The position numbers and the translations under genes are program-made. Under the pieces are notes generated by a model. That model searched no databases. It had not been told where the DNA came from and saw nothing but the letters and a program-made list of their open reading frames with translations. From Desulfobacterales bacterium (GTDB taxonomy: Bacteria > Desulfobacterota > Desulfobacteria > Desulfobacterales > JAHEIW01), in contig JAQYWI010000209.1 of NCBI GenBank assembly GCA_030145015.1, positions 1 through 9,080 of the forward strand: a stretch of 9,080 bases of DNA. Reading direction: 5' to 3'. The number at the start of each line of letters is the position of its first letter. The first letter of the stretch is position 1. This document shows, in pieces, positions 101 through 8,839 of the stretch.

Positions 101-142
101 TCGTTCGACGTTGGACGTTCAACGTTGAATGTTGGACGTTCG
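101..142. repeat. TTGGACGTTC repeat cluster with 12-bp palindrome
   Basis: The 11-mer GTTGGACGTTC occurs at 110-120 and again at 131-141. Between and overlapping them is the perfect palindrome TTCAACGTTGAA (118-129). A related CGTTCGACG stretch precedes it at 102-110. The cluster ends about 100 bp before the methyltransferase start. It could be a dispersed intergenic repeat or a binding site for a dimeric regulator. No convincing -35/-10 pair was found between it and the gene. Confidence 0.5.
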
Positions 143-244: not shown

Positions 245-1627
245 ATGTCTACCCCCTATCGTCTCTGGGAAATTTTACAGCGGTCTAATACAGGTCCATT
301 TTGCGATGAAGATGATTTCTTGCCAAAAATATTTACACCCAAGCTGCAGGAAGTCATCAAAAAATATGAGATCACCTATGATCCCAAAACCCCGGTGCCG
401 ACCGACGACGATCTGGCGGACAGGGTGTGGCAGGCCGGCTGGGAGTTATTCCGTGAGGTGGGCCTTTACAACACAGACACCCACCGGATCATTCAGGTCT
501 CCGACGATGAAATCAAAGAAGCGCTTTATATGGCGCCGGGGGCCTACTGGGTCGGCGCTGGAAAGGACGCTGTGCTATGGAAATACCGCCGGGTGGAGGA
601 TCGCGAGCCGCCATTTTGCATCTTCAGCCCGGACATAACCTGTGATGAAAATCTGCACCACTCCATGTGCCTCGCCTATCTCAAGGAGCCGCTTCTGGAT
701 GGTTTTTGTGCCCCCATCCTGGAGGACTCCATCGGCCAGAAAATCTCATCGGGCTCGCCGACTGAAATCAACGGGTGTACCCAGCACATATACAATCTTC
801 GACTGGCGGCCAAGCAAGTCGGCCGGCCCGGTGTTTTTTTTGTTGCCGTCGGGACCGCCGAGCATGACACCGGTCAAATTGCCGTATCCGACAACGAGTG
901 GGGGGTGCGCACCACCGATTCTCGACTCGTCGGAACTCTCACCGAGTTCAAAACGGCGGATACGCTGCTGAACCGGGTCACCCACTACGCCCAATATGGA
1001 TGTTATACCGGCAACCTTACAGGCCCCATCTACGGGGGCTGGTGTATGGGTTCGGAGGGGGTTGCCGTTACCCTGGTAGCCTACAGTCTGAGCGGCCTGT
1101 GCATCCATGGTGCGGCCTACAACCAGCATTTTCCCTTTCACCTGCATTGGGGCTCCAATACGACCCGAGAGCTTCTTTGGCCGATCAGTGTGGCCGGCCA
1201 GGCCATGGCGCGCAACAGCAAGCTTCTGCATACTTCCAACGGATTTTCAAACGCAGGCCCCATGACGGAAATGGTCTTATACGAAACCGCCTGTCATGCG
1301 CTTGTCAGCACGGTGTCAGGATGGCACCTGTGGGAAATGGCCTCGGCCCGCAATAAATATCGAAATCGGGCAACCCCGATGGAGGCCCGCATCGGTATGG
1401 AAGTCGGCCATGCCGTTGCCGGTCAGGGAATGACAAGAGAGCAGGCCAACGAGCTGGCCCTGAGGCTATTGTCAAAATATGAGGCCAATGCCGCCGATGC
1501 TCCCATGGGCAAAGAATACCCGGAATGCTACGACGTGGCCACGGCACTTCCGACCCCGGAGCACTTTGATTTGTACCGACGCATCAAGGATGAGCTGGCT
1601 GAAATGGGTATCGAATTCCCATACTAA
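245..1627 (+). CDS. pyrrolysine-free MtmB-family methyltransferase (substrate unknown)
   Basis: The 460-residue product matches the usual length of monomethylamine methyltransferase MtmB (about 458) and aligns with it throughout. Shared blocks include TDTHRI (79-84), GRPG (193-196), TDS (224-226), HY (247-248), GPIYGG (260-265), HxxWGS then TRE (299-309), AGPxTEM (337-343), PMEAR and KEYPECYDV near the C-terminus. MtmB is a TIM-barrel enzyme that moves a methyl group from monomethylamine to the Co(I) corrinoid of MtmC, using pyrrolysine encoded by an in-frame UAG. Here the frame is open with no UAG, and Val200 (Ala201 if the gap is placed differently) sits at the pyrrolysine position. The MtmB pocket residues Glu229, Glu259, Gln333 and Tyr335 align with Leu228, Leu258, Asn332 and Phe334. 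The alignment was made by eye from memory of the Methanosarcina sequence. GGAGG at 233-237, 7 nt before ATG, fixes the start. By analogy with the pyrrolysine-free MttB relatives (MtgB and others), it probably demethylates another methylated compound. The amino-acid-type importer downstream suggests one that resembles an amino acid. Family assignment is strong; substrate is inferred. Confidence 0.9.
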   Translation: MSTPYRLWEILQRSNTGPFCDEDDFLPKIFTPKLQEVIKKYEITYDPKTPVPTDDDLADRVWQAGWELFREVGLYNTDTHRIIQVSDDEIKEALYMAPGAYWVGAGKDAVLWKYRRVEDREPPFCIFSPDITCDENLHHSMCLAYLKEPLLDGFCAPILEDSIGQKISSGSPTEINGCTQHIYNLRLAAKQVGRPGVFFVAVGTAEHDTGQIAVSDNEWGVRTTDSRLVGTLTEFKTADTLLNRVTHYAQYGCYTGNLTGPIYGGWCMGSEGVAVTLVAYSLSGLCIHGAAYNQHFPFHLHWGSNTTRELLWPISVAGQAMARNSKLLHTSNGFSNAGPMTEMVLYETACHALVSTVSGWHLWEMASARNKYRNRATPMEARIGMEVGHAVAGQGMTREQANELALRLLSKYEANAADAPMGKEYPECYDVATALPTPEHFDLYRRIKDELAEMGIEFPY

Positions 1628-1665
1628 CAACAAAAATTTTCTTTCCAATGAATTGATTGTCCGCT

Positions 1666-2487
1666 ATGTCTACTGGAATGTCCCCATCATACCCAAAAAT
1701 CTGGTTAAATCTGAAGCGTTCTCCGCTGATGGACGTCACCAAATTCCTGATGGTGGTGGCAGTCCTCATTTGGGTTATGGCTCGCGGCACGCAGCAACTC
1801 GGTTATAACTGGCAATGGTACCAGGTCCCCAAATATATCTTTCAGTTTCAGGATGGTGAATTTTCTTTTGGGCCCCTTCTGTTCGGGTTGTCCATGACGT
1901 TTCGTATTACCGCCTGGGGCCTTGTATTGTCGATGACCATCGGATTGGTGACCGCCCTTTTGCGGCTATCCGACTCTTTCTTTGCCAGGATCGTTGCCAG
2001 AGGATATCTGGAGCTGATCCGCAACACACCGCTTCTGGTTCAAATCTTTTTCCTTTACTTCGTTCTGGCACCCATCTTCGGTTTCAGCCGCTTTTTTGCA
2101 GGCGTGCTTGCGCTGAGTCTTTTCGAAGGTGCCTATGCCTCGGAAATTTTTCGCGCCGGCATCGTCTCCATTCACAAAGGCCAGTGGGAAGCCTCGCACA
2201 GCCTGGGCTTGAACATCTTTGACACCTACCGCTGCATTATCCTGCCCCAGGCGATCCGGCGTATCCTCCCTCCCCTTACCGGCCAGGCAATATCACTGAT
2301 CAAAGACTCGGCCCTTGTCAGCACCATCGCTATTTATGATTTGACCATGGAAGGCCGGGCCGTTATCGCCGAAACATTTCTGACATTTGAGATCTGGTTC
2401 ACGATTGCTTTCATGTACCTCATTATTACGATAACGCTGTCTATTGTTGTCAATGTCCTCGAAAATCGGTTTCGAATTCAGACCTGA
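1666..2487 (+). CDS. polar amino acid ABC transporter permease 1 (HisM/GlnP type)
   Basis: This is an inner-membrane permease of the polar amino acid uptake (PAAT/HAAT) family. The product is about 273 residues: one N-terminal hydrophobic segment near 25-40, a YNWQW loop (47-51), then several membrane segments. The cytoplasmic EAA loop that docks to the ATPase is clear: KGQWEASHSLGL at 171-182 followed by IILPQAIRRILPPL at 191-204. It is clearly a paralogue of the permease at 4387-5271, sharing YNWQW, the EGAY..EI.RAGI block and the EAA loop, so the two probably form a heterodimer as in GltJ/GltK or AapQ/AapM. It begins 38 nt after the methyltransferase stop with no terminator between, which implies cotranscription. 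The start is uncertain: no good ribosome-binding site precedes TTG 1657, ATG 1666, ATG 1678 or ATG 1729. I chose 1666 because the paralogue also has a basic stretch before its first membrane segment, which rules against 1729. Confidence 0.9.
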   Translation: MSTGMSPSYPKIWLNLKRSPLMDVTKFLMVVAVLIWVMARGTQQLGYNWQWYQVPKYIFQFQDGEFSFGPLLFGLSMTFRITAWGLVLSMTIGLVTALLRLSDSFFARIVARGYLELIRNTPLLVQIFFLYFVLAPIFGFSRFFAGVLALSLFEGAYASEIFRAGIVSIHKGQWEASHSLGLNIFDTYRCIILPQAIRRILPPLTGQAISLIKDSALVSTIAIYDLTMEGRAVIAETFLTFEIWFTIAFMYLIITITLSIVVNVLENRFRIQT

Positions 2488-2508: not shown

Positions 2509-3261
2509 GTGCAAGAAAAGAAACTGGGTGATTATATTGTGACGGTGGATAAGATCGGCAAAACATTTCCCAACGGGGTTTGTGCATTGCGTGATTTTTC
2601 CACCCGAATCCGTCGCAGTGAGGTCGTGGTCATCATCGGCCCATCCGGTTCGGGAAAATCCACGTTTCTGCGTTGCCTCAACGGATTGGAAGAGATCGAT
2701 AGTGGTTCCATCGTTATCGACGGGACGCCGCTCGATGAAAACAAAAAAAATAGACTGGAGATCCGCAAAGAGGTCGGCATGGTTTTCCAGTCGTTCAATC
2801 TGTTTCCGCATAAAACCGTGCTCGGAAATATCATCCTGGCTCCCGGGCTGGTGCGTAAAAAAAGCAAGGATGAAGTCATGAAGATGGCGATGGACCTCCT
2901 GAAGAAAGTTAATATTCCGGAAAAAGCCGGCAGTTACCCTTCTCAGCTGAGCGGGGGCCAGCAGCAGCGGGTTGCGATTGCCCGGGCGCTGGCAATGCAC
3001 CCGAAAGTAATGATGTTCGATGAGGCCACGTCCGCTCTGGATCCTGAAATGATTGGCGAAGTTTTGGACGTTATGAAAAACCTTGCCGGAGAAGGGATGA
3101 CCATGATCGTCGTCACGCATGAAATGGGCTTTGCCCGTGAGGTCAGCGACCGCGTGATCTTTATGGAAGACGGTTGCATTGTCGAGGAAGGAACAGCAGA
3201 GCATTTTTTCACAAACCCGCAGAAAGATCGGACAAAACTTTTTCTCAGTCAGATTTTATAG
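2509..3261 (+). CDS. polar amino acid ABC transporter ATPase (GlnQ/HisP type)
   Basis: This 250-residue cytoplasmic subunit hydrolyses ATP to drive the importer formed with the permeases at 1666-2487 and 4387-5271. All nucleotide-binding motifs are present: Walker [10 protein letters not shown] (44-52), Q-loop Gln94 in [10 protein letters not shown], signature LSGGQ (147-151), Walker B VMMFDE (167-172), D-loop SALDPE (175-180) and switch His204 in VVTHEMGFA. Length and the QSFNLFPH form of the Q-loop are typical of the GlnQ/HisP/ArtP group. The start is GTG, decided by a near-consensus AAGGAGG at 2494-2500, 8 nt upstream. The gene lies 21 nt after permease 1, so they are almost certainly in one operon. 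Nothing in the ATPase itself indicates the substrate. Confidence 0.96.
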
Positions 3262-3430: not shown

Positions 3431-3446
3431 ATTAAAGGAGGGAATG

Positions 3447-4274
3447 ATGAGAAAACAATTCTACGTTTCAGCAATTGTGCTCGTATGTGTTTTCGTTCTT
3501 AGCTTGGCTGCCAGTACCTCAGCAGGGGAGATTCAGAGAAAACTGGCAGGCGAAAGCGCCGTCGAACAGATCGCCAAACGCGGTGTCATAAAGGTGGGTA
3601 TGGACGTATTCGTGCCATGGGCCATGAAAGATAAAAAGGGGGAATTAATCGGCTTTGAGATCGATATCGCCAAAAAATTCGCAGAGGACATGGGCGTCAA
3701 AATAGAGTTTGTACCGACGAAATGGTCCGGAATTATCCCTGCCCTGATTACCGGCAAGTTTGATGTGCTTATCGGCGGGATGACAATTACGACCCAGCGC
3801 AACCTGAAAATCAATTTCACAAGGCCTTATTACTATACCGAGCAGGGGTTAATGGCGCATAAAAAGAAAGCTGCGGGCTTTAAAGTCGCCGACTTCAACA
3901 GCCCGGGTGTCACCATCGCCGCCAGATTAGGGTCAACGGCCGCCGTTGCTGCAAAGCAGCAGTTTCCAAAAGCAAAACTGCGCCTCTTTGATGACGAACC
4001 CGCGGCGGTCCAGGAGCTGCGCAATGGTAATGTGCACGGCATGGTTTCTGCGCAACCACTGCCGTCAAGCACCGCCCTGGAATATCCCGATACGATCATG
4101 GTTTATGACGAAGTCATGATGCTCGAGGCGATCGGCATTGGCGTTCGCAAGAGCGACAACGACACCCTCAACTTGATAAACAACTGGATTGAGATTAACC
4201 GAAACAACGGATGGATCCAGGGCAGATACGCATACTGGTTCAAATCACAGGACTGGAAGAGTCTGATTGAATAG
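3447..4274 (+). CDS. periplasmic substrate-binding protein, amino-acid type (SBP_bac_3 family)
   Basis: The 275-residue product is exported to the periplasm and captures the ligand for the importer. Residues 1-26 form a signal peptide: basic MRK, hydrophobic core, and ASTSA before a likely cleavage after Ala26. There is no lipobox Cys, so it is soluble. The mature part is a family 3 solute-binding protein, with GVIKVGMD near 46-53, GFEIDIAKKFAE (69-80), GGMTIT..R (110-118), FTRPYYY (124-130) and the second-lobe block 191-215. In HisJ/GlnH relatives the Arg after TIT binds the ligand alpha-carboxylate, and Arg118 is kept. The Asp that binds the alpha-amino group (as in GlnH LHDTP) aligns with Ala202 in VSAQP, and the usual PFEF pocket edge is PWAM with Trp58. 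These changes suggest a carboxylate ligand without a free alpha-amino group; that is inference from a by-eye alignment. ATG 3447 is preferred to ATG 3444 because AGGAGG (3436-3441) then sits 5 nt upstream. Confidence 0.93.
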   Translation: MRKQFYVSAIVLVCVFVLSLAASTSAGEIQRKLAGESAVEQIAKRGVIKVGMDVFVPWAMKDKKGELIGFEIDIAKKFAEDMGVKIEFVPTKWSGIIPALITGKFDVLIGGMTITTQRNLKINFTRPYYYTEQGLMAHKKKAAGFKVADFNSPGVTIAARLGSTAAVAAKQQFPKAKLRLFDDEPAAVQELRNGNVHGMVSAQPLPSSTALEYPDTIMVYDEVMMLEAIGIGVRKSDNDTLNLINNWIEINRNNGWIQGRYAYWFKSQDWKSLIE

Positions 4275-4326: not shown

Positions 4327-4330
4327 TTAA

Positions 4331-4364
4331 TGGTTATTTGTTATTCGTTATCTGTTATTTATTG
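4331..4364. repeat. TTATT-rich intergenic repeat, second copy
   Basis: This gap carries serial GTTATTTGTTATTCGTTATCTGTTATTTATT-like units, roughly one per 7-9 bp. It includes GTTATTCGTT at 4340-4349, identical to 3361-3370. The reading frame of permease 2 runs open through it, but its translation there is low-complexity and precedes the likely start. Confidence 0.45.
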
Positions 4365-4386
4365 TAAAGGAACTAAGAGAACTACG

Positions 4387-5271
4387 GTGCTGCAAAAGAA
4401 AAGCAAAATGACACCCCTTGACGTTCTCGTATTGCTCACCCTTCTCGGGGGGCTGGCATATGTTATTTATCAGGTCAAGGTCAAACTCAACTATAACTGG
4501 CAATGGGGAATCATCCCCCAGTATCTCTTTCGCTACGATGCAGAATCCGGAAAGTGGGTGTCCAACTACCTGATCCATGGCCTAATGACCACCCTGCGGC
4601 TGAGCATCTGGGGCACCCTGCTGGCCATCATCCTCGGCACGGTGATGGGGCTGCTGCGGGTCAGCAAAAGCCTATTTCACAGAATGATCGCGCGCGCCTA
4701 TGTTGAGCTCATGCGCAACCTCCCGCCGCTGGTCATCATCTTCATTTTCTATTTCTTTATCAGCGACCAGATCATGCCGGTCATCGGTATTGACGATTTT
4801 CTCAGAAACAGTTCTCCAGAAACACAACGACTCTTTGAGATGTTCTTTTCACCGCCGCAATTTGCGTCGGCATTCATCGCCGCCCTCTTCACACTGGCTA
4901 TTTTCGAGGGCGCCTATATCACAGAGATCGTGCGAGCAGGTATCGAGTCTGTGGAGAAAGGCCAATGGGAGGCATCCCATGCCCTGGGCCTGTCAAAATA
5001 TCATAACATGCGCCATATTATTCTGCCCCAGGCGATGCAACGTCTTCTGCCGGCCCTTGCCGGACAGTTCATCTCTCTGATCAAGGATTCGGCCATCGTT
5101 TCGGTCATATCGATCCAGGAGTTATCCTACCAGGGAACGCAATTAATGGCGTCTACCTACCTGACGATCGAAATCTGGATTACGATCACCGCCCTTTATC
5201 TGGTGATGACCCTGACGTTTTCCCTCGGCGTCGGAAAACTCGAAACGTATATGGCCAGAAGCCAGGCATAG
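4387..5271 (+). CDS. polar amino acid ABC transporter permease 2 (HisM/GltK type)
   Basis: This is the second inner-membrane permease of the importer, about 294 residues from GTG 4387. It has an N-terminal membrane segment near 11-29, the YNWQW loop (36-40) shared with permease 1, further membrane segments, and the EAA loop KGQWEASHALGL (191-202) followed by IILPQAMQRLLPAL (211-224). It differs from permease 1 by an extra loop of about 25 residues near 127-158 (IMPVIGIDDFLRN..SPPQF) between membrane segments. That suggests a heterodimer rather than a recent duplication. GTG 4387 was chosen because the frame upstream to ATG 4330 translates the intergenic repeat. Support is modest: AAAGGA lies 15 nt upstream, and ATG 4408 is an alternative. 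Its placement after the binding-protein gene is less usual than adjacent permease genes. The stop is followed at once by a hairpin. Confidence 0.9.
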   Translation: MLQKKSKMTPLDVLVLLTLLGGLAYVIYQVKVKLNYNWQWGIIPQYLFRYDAESGKWVSNYLIHGLMTTLRLSIWGTLLAIILGTVMGLLRVSKSLFHRMIARAYVELMRNLPPLVIIFIFYFFISDQIMPVIGIDDFLRNSSPETQRLFEMFFSPPQFASAFIAALFTLAIFEGAYITEIVRAGIESVEKGQWEASHALGLSKYHNMRHIILPQAMQRLLPALAGQFISLIKDSAIVSVISIQELSYQGTQLMASTYLTIEIWITITALYLVMTLTFSLGVGKLETYMARSQA

Positions 5272-5299
5272 TCCAATTGAGCACAAACGCTCAATTGGA
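5272..5299 (+). terminator. hairpin directly after the permease 2 stop codon
   Basis: TCCAATTGAGC (5272-5282) and GCTCAATTGGA (5289-5299) are exact reverse complements around ACAAAC. The stem starts on the first base after the TAG at 5269-5271 and closes the transporter block. The stem has moderate GC and is followed by AGTTATTGG rather than a U-tract. An intrinsic terminator is therefore only a fair guess; an mRNA-end stabiliser is equally possible. Being symmetric, it could act on both strands. Confidence 0.5.
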
Positions 5300-5411: not shown

Positions 5412-6671
5412 TTATCTAACCTCTGAACCTTTCAACAGCGACAGCGGCTTTTTTAGCCTGTTGCTCAGGAAATCGACCGCGCAGCAGGCCTGAATCGCTG
5501 CGCCCAGAGCCATGGCCTCCTCATTAAAATCAAAAAACGGGCTGTGGAGCGGGTGGGTGAAACCCAGGGCGGGATTTGCGGTTCCCAGGAGCCAGTGAGC
5601 ACCGGGGACCTTCTGATGGAAGTAGGCGACGTCTTCTCCGGTCATGCTGGGGGATTGCATGTCGATGACTCTGTCGGCCGGCACAACTTTGGCCGCCGAA
5701 TCCTTGAATTCCGCTGCCAGCTCCGGATGGTTGAAAACCGACGGATATTCCCGCTTAACGGTTAGATGGCATGTTCCCCCGCTTGTTTGCGCCACTCCCC
5801 GAGCCACCTGGTCTAACGCATTGGCCAGTTCTTCGCGCTTCTCTGGATTGAGGGCCCGGATGGAGCCTGTCAGCGTGACCTCTTCAGGAATAATGTTACT
5901 GGCCGTCCCCCCGCGAACCTTGCAAAACGAGAGGATTGCAGGATCCAGGGGACTTTTTTTCCTGGAGACGATGGTTTGGCCGGCCATGATCACCATTGCC
6001 GCCATGATGACAGGATCCACGCCTTCATGGGGGCTTGCTACGTGGCAGCCTTTGCCGATCATCCTCAGAACAAATTCAGCCGATGAGATCGTGCCGAAGC
6101 CGGATTTTATCCCGACGGTGCCTTCGGGTAAATCGGGGTTCAGGTGCAGCGAAAAGATGCCATCGACATCCGGATTTTTGAGGGCACCATCCGCTATCAT
6201 GGGTATGGCACCGCCCGGCGCCTTATCTTCGCTGGGTTGAAAGACGAACTTGACGCTGCCCTCGAGCAGATCCGGGAATCTGCAGAGCAAACTGGCGGTT
6301 CCCAACAGGATGGCCGTATGCCCGTCGTGGCCGCAGCAATGCGCAACACCGGGCCTGGTCGAAACATAGGGAACGGCATTTTTTTCTTCTATAGGAAGTG
6401 CATCCATGTCCGCACGCAAGGCAACACATTTTCCCGCTTCCTTGGCTGACAGCGTGGCGATAACACCATGACCGCCGATGCCGGTGCGCACATCGAGTCC
6501 GAGATGCTTCAGATAGTCGGCAACAATCCGGGATGTTCGAACTTCTTGGGTTCCGAGTTCGGGGTGCTTGTGCAGATCTCTGCGGATTTCCCGCATCTGG
6601 CTTAGAAGATTCCCGGCTTCCTGCAAAAAACGGTGTTGTTTCCTTATACGTATGTCTTTTTTCGACTTCAC
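5412..6671 (-). CDS. M20D-family metal-dependent amidohydrolase
   Basis: The 419-residue cytoplasmic enzyme belongs to the peptidase M20 subfamily D (hippurate hydrolase, IAA-amino acid hydrolase, N-acyl amino acid deacylase), which splits N-acyl or amide bonds of amino acid conjugates with two metal ions. Visible motifs are HKHPELG (34-40), ALRADMDALP (84-93), HCCGHDGH (111-118; likely ligands Cys113 and His115), FQPSEDKAPGGA (144-155; Glu148 the likely catalytic base, Asp149 where Glu is more common), HLNP (176-179; His176), the dimerisation-domain block SPHEGVDP (213-220), MTGED (343-347) and HSPFFDFNEE (376-385; His376). The frame opens at TTG 6704, inside the preceding gene, but GTG 6671 is preferred. 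GGGAG (minus strand, plus positions 6677-6681) lies 5 nt upstream, and the start then falls 16 nt after the molybdopterin enzyme stop. The two genes are presumably cotranscribed. The true amide substrate cannot be told from sequence. Confidence 0.92.
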   Translation of the reverse strand: MKSKKDIRIRKQHRFLQEAGNLLSQMREIRRDLHKHPELGTQEVRTSRIVADYLKHLGLDVRTGIGGHGVIATLSAKEAGKCVALRADMDALPIEEKNAVPYVSTRPGVAHCCGHDGHTAILLGTASLLCRFPDLLEGSVKFVFQPSEDKAPGGAIPMIADGALKNPDVDGIFSLHLNPDLPEGTVGIKSGFGTISSAEFVLRMIGKGCHVASPHEGVDPVIMAAMVIMAGQTIVSRKKSPLDPAILSFCKVRGGTASNIIPEEVTLTGSIRALNPEKREELANALDQVARGVAQTSGGTCHLTVKREYPSVFNHPELAAEFKDSAAKVVPADRVIDMQSPSMTGEDVAYFHQKVPGAHWLLGTANPALGFTHPLHSPFFDFNEEAMALGAAIQACCAVDFLSNRLKKPLSLLKGSEVR

Positions 6672-6687
6672 CTTTGCTCCCTTTGTA

Positions 6688-8751
6688 TTAAGGAATCTTC
6701 TCAATCCGGACGGGAACGGCTTTTAACAGGGGAAAACCACTGATCGGATCATTGATATTATCAAAGGTTACATGGTTAACATTGCTATCCTGCCAGCCGT
6801 GGGGAATTTCAACGAAGCCCGCAAGAATTTGCGCGGCATCGACTATTTTTACCCGGACTTGCACCGCGCCGATTTCCGATATGACCCGAACCTGTTCGGT
6901 GTTTTCAATTCCCAGTCTCTCAGCATCTTTCGGATTCATCTCCATTTCAGCAATGGGAAAGGCTTTCCGAAACTTTGGAATATTGTGATATCGGGAGTGG
7001 TAGTAAAGCGGGTTGCGCGTGCCGGTGTTCAGTACAAAGGGAAACTCCTTGTTGGGATGACGAAGGTAGCGGGGCGGGATATACTCCGGAATCTCCGGGA
7101 GATTGAGATCTTTCAAATATTGTGAGGTAAATTCAACCTTCCCGGAACGCGTCGGGAAGGGCCGGGCTTCATATTTCTTATAACGTACGGGTCTGTAAAC
7201 AATACCTTCGGGACGCTTTTGCAGCGCTTCCAGAGAAATGCCGGTCGGCTCGAGAATCCAGCGGGTCACCTGTTCTTCGTTTTCCCATGGAAAATATTCC
7301 TTCCCAAAACCGAGGCGGTGGGCCAGATCATGCCACAGGGAGTACTCATCGTTCACACCCGCAACTTCAGCCACTTTGGAGGTCAGCGCAACCATCTGGT
7401 ATTTTGGATGAAAATGGAGCTCGGATCTTTCAAGAAAGCTGGCCGCAGGCAGAACATAATGCGCCAGCTGGGCAGTTTCAGTGAGGAACAGGTCATTTAC
7501 CACCAGGAGTTCCAGCGAGGAAAGCGCCTGGACAACTTTTGTTGTATTGGGATTGTTAATCGCCGGATTGGCTGCGGTCATGATGATCCCTTTGAGGGGG
7601 TATCCACCATTTCCGAGCATGTAATCCATGGCCGTCATTGTGTGGCATTCCCAGCGGTAATCATAAAGGACCGGAAACCTATCCGCTCCGATCGGCTTTT
7701 GATCGCTGAGTGAAATCTCGTCACATAAAGAGAGTTTGCGCTCTCCCATTGCTTCCGGCCAGGTGAATCCCCCTTTGATATCAAGAGCCCCGCAGAGGGC
7801 CGCCAGGCAAGCGATCGTGCGGACGTCGTTGACACCATTTTCCTGGTGTTCTAACCCGATTCCCGGGAAAATATTTATGCGGGGAAGGTTGCCCGAAACC
7901 ATTTCGGCGATTGCCTCAAAAGTTTGCCGGTCCACCCCGGTCTGTTGCTGCACGAATCCCGGGGTAAATGCCTCGGCGCAGCGAGCAAAGGCTTCAAAAC
8001 CGATGCAATATTTGTTTACAAATTCTTGATCATAGGCATCGGTCTTAATCAGATGCCGACACAACCCCCACGCCAGAGCGCCATCGGTTCCGGGCAAGGG
8101 GCGCGCAACGACATCGGCTTTTTTTGTGGTTTTATTCAGACGCGGGTCGATTACAATGAGTCCGGCGCCCCGCTTTCGGGCCTTGGCAACCTCGCGCATA
8201 TACGTCGGATGGCTTACGGAGAGATTGGTACCCCACAGGATAATGAGATCCGAATGTTCAAATTCCGGATGAGAATTCCAGAACCCGTGCACCAATAGAA
8301 AACCCAGGTAACGGCCATTAAAACAGACAGAATCATTTGACAGATAATTGGGCGATCCAAAGGCATGGATAAAGCGTCTGGCATAATCTTCTTCCTGAAA
8401 GTACCCGATCGCCTCTCCCTTCCAGACGCCCACGGACCGGGCTCCATATTTTTCCCGGATATGAAGAATCTTCGCGGCAATCTCATCGAAAGCCTGCTCC
8501 CGGGAGATTTCCATGAAGGAACCATCAGGCTTTTTCTTAAGCGGACTTAAGAGTCGATCCTCATGGTAAAAAAGGTCTTTGGCAGCCCGGCCTTTCACGC
8601 AGATCGGCTCCCGATTTTCCGGGTGTTCATCCAGAGCGGAAAAATCCACAATCGCCCCATCGCGGATATGCACATTCATACCACAGCGAATACCGCATTG
8701 GCGGCACAGGGTTGGGATGGTACCGTTTTTAATAACTGTGTTTACATCCAT
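6688..8751 (-). CDS. molybdopterin/tungstopterin oxidoreductase family protein, acetylene-hydratase-like branch
   Basis: The 687-residue product is a DMSO-reductase-superfamily enzyme holding a bis-pterin Mo or W and one [4Fe-4S] cluster. The cluster motif is CRQCGIRC...C (Cys16, Cys19, Cys23, Cys51), followed by Lys53, the usual electron-transfer Lys. The likely metal ligand is Cys143 in DSVCFNGR; no Sec codon is present. Later blocks are IDPRLNKT, LPGTDGALAWG, PLKGIIMTAANPA, DLFLTETAQLAHYVLPAASFLER, and a C-terminal pterin-binding domain with NTGTRNPLYYHSRYHN and IPHGW. The order and wording resemble Pelobacter acetylene hydratase, but that enzyme has its catalytic Asp right after the second cluster Cys, where this protein has Gly20. 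Hydratase activity is therefore unlikely and a redox role is more probable. There is no twin-Arg signal, so it is cytoplasmic. No electron-transfer subunit lies alongside. The frame extends to TTG 8820, but the conserved region begins just after ATG 8751, and the extra 23 codons overlap promoter-like sequence. No good ribosome-binding site was seen. The exact substrate is unknown. Confidence 0.88.
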   Translation of the reverse strand: MDVNTVIKNGTIPTLCRQCGIRCGMNVHIRDGAIVDFSALDEHPENREPICVKGRAAKDLFYHEDRLLSPLKKKPDGSFMEISREQAFDEIAAKILHIREKYGARSVGVWKGEAIGYFQEEDYARRFIHAFGSPNYLSNDSVCFNGRYLGFLLVHGFWNSHPEFEHSDLIILWGTNLSVSHPTYMREVAKARKRGAGLIVIDPRLNKTTKKADVVARPLPGTDGALAWGLCRHLIKTDAYDQEFVNKYCIGFEAFARCAEAFTPGFVQQQTGVDRQTFEAIAEMVSGNLPRINIFPGIGLEHQENGVNDVRTIACLAALCGALDIKGGFTWPEAMGERKLSLCDEISLSDQKPIGADRFPVLYDYRWECHTMTAMDYMLGNGGYPLKGIIMTAANPAINNPNTTKVVQALSSLELLVVNDLFLTETAQLAHYVLPAASFLERSELHFHPKYQMVALTSKVAEVAGVNDEYSLWHDLAHRLGFGKEYFPWENEEQVTRWILEPTGISLEALQKRPEGIVYRPVRYKKYEARPFPTRSGKVEFTSQYLKDLNLPEIPEYIPPRYLRHPNKEFPFVLNTGTRNPLYYHSRYHNIPKFRKAFPIAEMEMNPKDAERLGIENTEQVRVISEIGAVQVRVKIVDAAQILAGFVEIPHGWQDSNVNHVTFDNINDPISGFPLLKAVPVRIEKIP

Positions 8752-8797
8752 TGGTGAAGAGATCTCAATTCCAGCTCGACATGGGTAACCGTAAAAG

Positions 8798-8839
8798 AGT
8801 ATAAATGTCAAAAATGTCAAAGGAAAGATTGATTGTCAA
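8798..8839 (-). promoter_or_regulatory. possible promoter/operator with tandem TTTGACATT repeat
   Basis: Read on the minus strand, three TTGACA hexamers lie before the molybdopterin enzyme gene, at 8839-8834, 8820-8815 and 8811-8806. The last two are part of an exact tandem repeat, TTTGACATT twice (8821-8804). A TATACT hexamer follows at 8803-8798, about 47 nt before ATG 8751. None of the TTGACA copies is spaced 16-18 nt from TATACT, so this is not a textbook sigma-70 promoter. The tandem copies may be activator or repressor sites beside a -10 element. Confidence 0.35.

Follow-up and report, generated by a model that had tools for sequence, protein, structure and literature searches.

What does a member of the monomethylamine methyltransferase (MtmB) family do when it carries no pyrrolysine (Pyl)? 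The question is raised by a gene near one end of a 9,080-nucleotide stretch of DNA from a Desulfobacterales bacterium, which was analysed as a whole and is called the window here (Table 1). The explanation that best fits the evidence below is that the gene encodes a direct, corrinoid-dependent methyltransferase that works without pyrrolysine on a substrate resembling an N-methylated amino acid. We give this reading a probability of a little under 60%.

The sequence-only reading of this DNA had stated that no function was described for pyrrolysine-free MtmB relatives. A paper of March 2026 (PMC13044021) has overtaken that statement: the MtmB homologue MtqB of Methanococcoides methylutens Q3c, which has no Pyl, was reported there to remove methyl groups from tetramethylammonium and choline. 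By the account of PMC13044021, no non-Pyl MtmB had been given a demonstrated function before MtqB; the partially purified enzyme, supplied with free cob(I)alamin, gave 37, 42 and 11 nmol/min/mg with tetramethylammonium, choline and monomethylamine, respectively, and was inactive on trimethylamine and glycine betaine. MtqC and MtqB are adjacent by locus number, and the tree of that paper, comprising 1,061 Pyl and non-Pyl MtmBs, marks the non-Pyl proteins outside its highlighted clades as 'of unknown function'. MtqB, from one methanogen, was the single assayed non-Pyl MtmB that we found in the openly licensed PubMed Central literature. In Formimonas grown on dichloromethane, the protein with the highest fold change was a non-Pyl member of the MtmB superfamily (PMC9768040, 2022). 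Ga0180325_111810 of 'Candidatus Formimonas warabiya' resembles the window protein in being a bacterial non-Pyl member of the MtmB superfamily; it differs in being approximately 30% identical to other superfamily members, as PMC9768040 gives it, and abundant in dichloromethane cultures. The dual use of Pyl and selenocysteine (Sec) in marine Deltaproteobacteria is described in PMC8318568, the extracts of which contain no MtmB. Two comparisons were set aside: CdmB, for chloromethane (PMC13222342), is a URO-D protein, and the MtaA-like proteins of PMC10418091 belong to another cluster type. Searches of the openly licensed PubMed Central literature returned no description of the window clade or its operon, and nothing besides PMC9768040 on non-Pyl MttB with spirochaetes.

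Table 1. Annotated features of the window, with strand and supporting matches. Percentages in the last column are identities to the corresponding gene at L001, a related locus with the same operon.
Feature	Position	Strand	Evidence
Imperfect palindrome or terminator-like element upstream of the methyltransferase gene	112..142	+	putative
Non-pyrrolysine MtmB-family methyltransferase (MT1), 460 aa	245..1627	+	PF05369; 1L2Q/1NTH by sequence and fold
GTT codon, Val200, at the Pyl202 position of M. barkeri MtmB1	842..844	+	alignment, codon list, column count
ABC permease, polar amino-acid type; TTG start, in-frame ATG at 1666	1657..2487	+	PF00528; TIGR01726 over cut-off; 91%
ABC ATPase, polar amino-acid type	2509..3261	+	PF00005; best NCBIfam match GlnQ, below cut-off; 92%
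Family-3 solute-binding protein	3444..4274	+	PF00497; nearest solved structure by sequence 9e2b, 2.2e-93; 87%
Second ABC permease, polar amino-acid type	4330..5271	+	PF00528; TIGR01726 over cut-off; 91%
11-pair hairpin directly past the ABC operon	5272..5299	+	consensus scan only
M20 amidohydrolase (IAA-amino acid hydrolase / YxeP-like), convergent	5412..6704	-	TIGR01891 over cut-off; 1xmb 3.5e-67
Molybdopterin oxidoreductase (DMSO-reductase family), overlapping the M20 gene	6688..8820	-	PF00384, PF01568, PF04879

The methyltransferase and its pyrrolysine site

The protein matched PF05369 over positions 3-450 of the 450-position profile (E 8.3e-92). This was its sole family, and there was no match to PF06253, the non-Pyl MttB superfamily, at 0.001. 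The predicted structure was confident and superposed on MtmB at 1.4 Å, which places an MtmB fold in the model, and the identity to M. barkeri MtmB1 was 30%. The sequence-only description of a full-length, uninterrupted MtmB homologue that does without pyrrolysine was borne out by this match and by the codons at the site, and the assignment of the product as a non-Pyl MtmB homologue is well supported by profile and predicted fold.

From searches that included the best 120 of 245 matches to M. barkeri MtmB1, 262 full-length proteins (440 aa or more) were gathered and clustered at 85% to give 130 representatives; the set is a sample and not a census of the family. Those above 70% identity to the window protein, 39 in number, are taken as the window clade and cover 157 of the 262 sequences gathered. 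The Pyl column holds Val in all 39. An assembly error, or a decaying gene that formerly contained a TAG, might be suspected from the run of eight T near the site (window 834-841). Against this stand the frame, open over 460 codons with no in-frame TAG, the invariant Val of the clade and the nearest cluster, P0001, which is 95% identical to the window protein and has 251 member sequences; the chance of such an artefact is negligible.

The surroundings of the site were also changed. Six positions of MtmB1 were compared (Pyl202, E205, E229, E259, Q333 and Y335), and all are replaced in the window protein (V200, G203, L228, L258, N332 and F334). The five apart from Pyl202 reportedly line the pyrrolysine pocket of MtmB. 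Across the clade, the column of F334 holds Tyr, and that of N332 Ala or Gly, in 3/39 representatives each. Among the residues that at least 97% of the clade share and that are uncommon outside it are F198, A201, G203, E206-H207-D208, W219, R227, Y263, W266, W360 and W363. Position 227 is Arg in 39/39 clade representatives and in the sister protein L070_2, and His in nine hand-picked sequences of the Pyl side; Arg227 is possibly a carboxylate clamp.

A quick maximum-likelihood tree of 108 rows was built from the representatives, with 31 of the 130 left out (24 of the window clade and 7 others) and nine truncated C-terminal pieces, taken as Pyl-type, added; long branches meet elsewhere in this tree. 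The window clade formed one group (SH-aLRT 99) with L070_2 as its sister (100), both lying within a 51-row group (99), apart from a 29-row group (99) that holds the M. barkeri enzyme and the presumed Pyl-type pieces. This Pyl-side group also includes proteins with other residues at the site. Seven of its members (P0121, P0122, P0123, P0125, P0127, P0130 and P0133) have Gln, Cys or Lys there, possibly as replacements of Pyl or as deposited translations that write a residue for amber. More widely, the family is large and uncharacterised: its paralogues fall into numerous distinct clades whose residue at the site is His, Gly, Ile, Leu, Met or Val, and single genomes carry up to seven near-full-length copies (G677), with no internal TAG among the matches listed. 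PF05369 was found in 9/297, 8/198 and 6/201 genomes of three phyla, and in 33/194 genomes of the order to which the host of L001 belongs.

Relatives, their hosts and their neighbouring genes

The neighbourhoods of relatives were compared at 26 loci in 25 genomes, bacterial by title, from Desulfobacterales and other Deltaproteobacteria, Spirochaetes and one member of the Anaerolineae. Neighbouring genes were called by tblastn; longest-ORF lists hide genes that lie under antisense ORFs, such as the corrinoid gene of L008 and the ABC ATPases.

The PylS C-terminal domain was over its curated cut-off in 11 of the 25 host genomes, G001, the host of L001, among them, and in 1 of 14 control genomes. 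At 0.001, 22 of the 25 gave some match to the PylS profile, mostly other synthetases. None of the six genomes from spirochaetes, nor that from the Anaerolineae, had PylS over the curated cut-off. When these 25 genomes were searched with PF06253, at least 29 rows had exactly one internal TAG, in at least 11 genomes, and 9 of the 11 listed genomes with amber MttB also had PylS over the cut-off. The PF05369 searches, with stops counted in the same way, had no internal TAG among the matches listed; the few internal stops were TAA or TGA, in fragments. As these hosts combine PylS and amber MttB with an MtmB that has no TAG, it is probably the enzyme, and not the decoding, that accounts for the absence of Pyl. 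The same genomes bear on whether the protein is still a monomethylamine methyltransferase that dispenses with pyrrolysine. Its MtmB fold, its 30% identity to MtmB1 and the low monomethylamine activity of MtqB (PMC13044021) would allow this, but all six compared positions are changed, with Tyr at the F334 column in 3/39 of the clade as the residue kept, and the many hosts that encode pyrrolysyl-tRNA synthetase would have no need of a Pyl-free substitute; we consider it very unlikely.

A gene for a corrinoid protein lies directly upstream of the methyltransferase gene, on the same strand, in 23/23 of the 26 loci with room for it (L015, L022 and L023 have none). The two genes are 15 to 270 bases apart when the stop codon is left out. 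The corrinoid protein of L001 contains PF02607 and PF02310 and scores 199 bits on TIGR02370 (cut-off 215), and the DxHxxG motif was present in 23/23 corrinoid ORFs listed, from 22 loci (the L008 gene falls outside the list). Two additional clade loci, L128 and L129, both have the gene. This adjacency fits corrinoid-dependent methyl transfer. Two observations count against that reading: the 244 bases upstream of position 245 in the window contain no corrinoid gene, and among 95 short-flank whole-genome loci of the wider family, partly overlapping the 26, a corrinoid gene was present in 75 and absent in 20, several of these with full flanks. The absence from the window itself is uninformative because the relatives' spacers reach 270 bases.

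The first permease gene of the window begins 29 bases past the methyltransferase stop. At L001 the same importer gene order follows the methyltransferase gene, with 87-92% identity to the window and contiguous in both. All NCBIfam equivalog matches of the importer (glutamine, cystine, ectoine and others) were below cut-off. A family-3 solute-binding protein is encoded in the window and at 6/26 loci, a low frequency that counts against the proposed reading. An MttB homologue lies near the clade gene at 14/26 loci. There were 16 MttB genes in 320 kb versus about 1.05 expected from genome density, an excess whose significance is overstated since MttB genes cluster. In two genomes (G818 and G790) the single MttB homologue found in the search adjoins the clade gene. 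URO-D genes were near the clade gene at 10/26 loci, with none in the window, and a GntR-UTRA regulator at 6/26. L128 brings together a regulator, the corrinoid protein, the methyltransferase, URO-D, the importer and a molybdopterin oxidoreductase; L129 has this set minus the importer and plus MttB.

The remaining window genes recur less often. Relatives of the M20 gene occur near clade genes at L012 and L023 (2/26 loci). The closest solved relative of the window's molybdopterin oxidoreductase is acetylene hydratase (2e7z), and an oxidoreductase of this kind is found near the clade gene at 6/26 loci; in L014, L016 and L022 a 4Fe-4S gene adjoins it. One also occurs near the sister clade (L135-L137). 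The window protein has an active-site-like Cys with no His following it; in formate dehydrogenases the active-site Cys is followed by His. The upstream palindromic repeat (window 102-142) is perhaps a small dispersed intergenic element. A search of the whole window at Rfam gathering scores gave no match. Downstream of the Anaerolineae gene (L024, 10570-17380) there are carbamoyltransferase and xanthine-dehydrogenase-type genes, and N-methylated purine-like compounds therefore stay among the candidate substrates.

A predicted selenoprotein beside the methyltransferase

A URO-D gene of the type we call a lies directly downstream of the MtmB-like gene and has an in-frame TGA in 11 of the 12 distinct clade loci that carry it: L006 (9406-10450), L009, L012, L013, L014, L016, L017, L018, L128, L129 and L113, the last with a methyltransferase 71.5% identical to that of the window. 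The twelfth, L022, has TGC. The codon stands in the context APG-(TGA)-D-[IL]-P, followed by about 30 more conserved residues in frame. From 15 bases past the TGA, a SECIS-like hairpin can be drawn with an 8-pair stem and a 3-base loop, G(G/U)C. Of its eight pairs, seven or eight form in all 11 TGA genes and two in the Cys gene of L022; paired changes occur at two positions (AT/GC and TA/CG). None of 2,000 synonymous-codon draws matched the observed pairing, with either pooled or uniform codon usage. Among the 15 genomes tried, a set from which the L113 host was left out, selB was over cut-off in 14 (not the L012 host) versus 2/14 controls, and tRNA-Sec over its gathering score in 13 (not the L006 and L018 hosts) versus 5/14 controls. 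The URO-D type a protein is probably a selenoprotein, in which the TGA would be read as selenocysteine.

The TGA position aligns with the PGC of URO-D type b proteins, and the one type a protein compared has as its closest solved structure the methylcobalamin:CoM methyltransferase MtaA (4ay7). We take PGC together with HxC to be the zinc site of MtaA-type enzymes, so the predicted Sec would stand in the place of the zinc-ligand Cys of MtaA. This would be an unusual use of selenocysteine. In the type b proteins (L006, L009, L012, L014 and L025), both HxC and PGC are kept in 5/5; these motifs are presumably a zinc/thiol site, and their conservation raises the question of which thiol accepts the methyl group. 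The words uroporphyrinogen, UroD and MtaA are absent from the extracts of two reviews of prokaryotic selenoproteins (PMC13188914, PMC9312934). A gene for a conserved protein of about 130 aa lies 3' of the URO-D type a gene in L016, L017, L018, L022, L128 and L129 (the L017 copy has no Pfam match), with a CobW-type GTPase gene near it in L017, L018, L022, L128 and L129.

The presence of URO-D genes at 10/26 loci is relevant to the source of the methyl group, as this superfamily includes enzymes acting on O-, S- or halogen-bound methyl groups. The clade might thus demethylate a methoxylated aromatic, a sulfonium such as DMSP or a chlorinated methane, and the Formimonas protein with the top fold change on dichloromethane (PMC9768040) would be in line with this. 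However, the similarity of the type a protein to MtaA makes a role in the second step as likely, the nearby MttB homologues point to amines, and neither the importer nor the aminotransferase described below fits; such a substrate is in our judgement rather unlikely.

Spirochaete operons and the candidate substrate

Neighbour sets vary by lineage, which counts against the proposed reading: an oxidoreductase, a ligase and a HisC-type aminotransferase stand beside the gene in spirochaetes and are absent from the Desulfobacterales loci. Genes for the alpha and beta subunits of an IOR-type 2-oxoacid:ferredoxin oxidoreductase, an ADP-forming acyl-CoA ligase and a class-I aminotransferase were present at 5/6 spirochaete loci (not L023). 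At L002 the genes for IclR, aminotransferase, corrinoid protein, MtmB-like protein, IOR alpha, IOR beta and ligase are co-directional with spacers below 55 bases. The aminotransferases of L002 and L008 are of the HisC type, over the TIGR01141 cut-off; those of L005 and L026 gave a HisC-type match by tblastn, and that of L007 is of another type. The association outlasts rearrangement, as the oxidoreductase block is divergent in L005, L007 and L026. The methyltransferases of L002, L005, L007 and L008 are 82-85% identical. The spirochaete IOR copies score 567-608 bits against a curated cut-off of 650.9, which leaves 'indolepyruvate' as their 2-oxoacid not established. The IOR and ligase genes of the Anaerolineae locus (L024/L138) were excluded from the counts, being separated from the methyltransferase by approximately 11 kb that contains other genes.

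These neighbours bear on whether the window protein is a bacterial counterpart of MtqB, acting on a small quaternary amine with no carboxylate, for example tetramethylammonium or choline. The two share their family, the lack of Pyl and an adjacent corrinoid gene, as for MtqC/MtqB (here, in the relatives), and direct transfer, shown for MtqB, is expected here (PMC13044021). The clade-specific aromatic residues W62, W66, W219, Y263, W266, W360 and W363 would also suit a quaternary ammonium group. MtqB differs in being archaeal and methanogenic and in acting on substrates that have no carboxylate, whereas the window clade is bacterial, has an importer of the amino-acid type with a family-3 (PF00497) binding protein and, in spirochaetes, stands with amino-acid fermentation genes; an aminotransferase and a 2-oxoacid oxidoreductase would be of no use for choline or tetramethylammonium, and the invariant Arg227 would be odd for a cation-only substrate. 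MtqB is drawn near the Pyl-MtmBs in PMC13044021 and the window clade falls in a separate, supported group, the placement of MtqB being taken from that paper as drawn. No protein named Methanococcoides was among the best 120 of 245 MtmB1 matches or the 22 from the distant-member alignment, where most rows are nameless. An MtqB-like substrate is unlikely on this evidence.

We therefore return to the N-methylated amino-acid-like substrate. The product of 245-1627 would be the substrate-specific MT1 of a three-component corrinoid-dependent system. An N-methylated amino acid or betaine-like compound would enter through the adjacent family-3 ABC transporter and sit directly in the TIM-barrel pocket, in the place of Pyl and the bound amine in MtmB, perhaps held by Arg227. 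The cob(I)alamin of an MtxC-type partner would attack the substrate methyl directly and take one methyl group, a direct route that the MtqB precedent makes plausible (PMC13044021); the inactivity of MtqB on glycine betaine and trimethylamine counts against extending that precedent to betaines. A second methyltransferase would pass the methyl group onward; for roughly one in three relatives this is probably the adjacent MtaA-like predicted selenoprotein. The MttB homologue found near the gene in about half of the relatives would probably strip another methyl group from the same compound. Spirochaetes would then gain ATP from the demethylated amino acid through transamination and oxidative decarboxylation. 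The non-Pyl MttB superfamily (MtgB, MtpB, MtcB and MtyB) would by inference be alike in its TIM barrel, its dependence on corrinoid and its use of N-methyl substrates without Pyl. M. barkeri MtmB1 (1NTH, 1L2Q) differs at 30% identity, with Pyl202 and the five other compared positions replaced in the window protein.

A more specific proposal is offered tentatively. The substrate may be the betaine of an aromatic or heteroaromatic amino acid, comparable to hypaphorine, hercynine or tyrosine betaine, from which the clade enzyme and its MttB homologue take the N-methyl groups one after another, with the freed amino acid fermented through the HisC-type aminotransferase, the IOR-type oxidoreductase and the ADP-forming acyl-CoA ligase, and the methyl group leaving through the Sec-containing MtaA-like enzyme in sulfate reducers. 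No paper on hypaphorine or hercynine demethylation was found in the openly licensed PubMed Central literature.

The sequence-only suggestion of a parallel, unexplored branch of corrinoid-dependent demethylation holds in part: the relatives' corrinoid gene fits it and the clade has its own pocket and operon, but MtqB (PMC13044021) already provides one described function for a non-Pyl MtmB. The clade spans genomes labelled Desulfobacterales, Deltaproteobacteria, Spirochaetes and Anaerolineae, and its operon narrows the substrate to something testable. If the betaine proposal is true, the MtmB family would have diversified without the 22nd amino acid while a partner took up the 21st. If the broader reading of an N-methylated amino-acid-like substrate is right, anaerobes would have a route for N-methylated amino acids that bypasses trimethylamine, and what pyrrolysine contributes could be studied in another enzyme family besides MttB, in hosts whose MttB genes carry amber and in which no MtmB that was found does.
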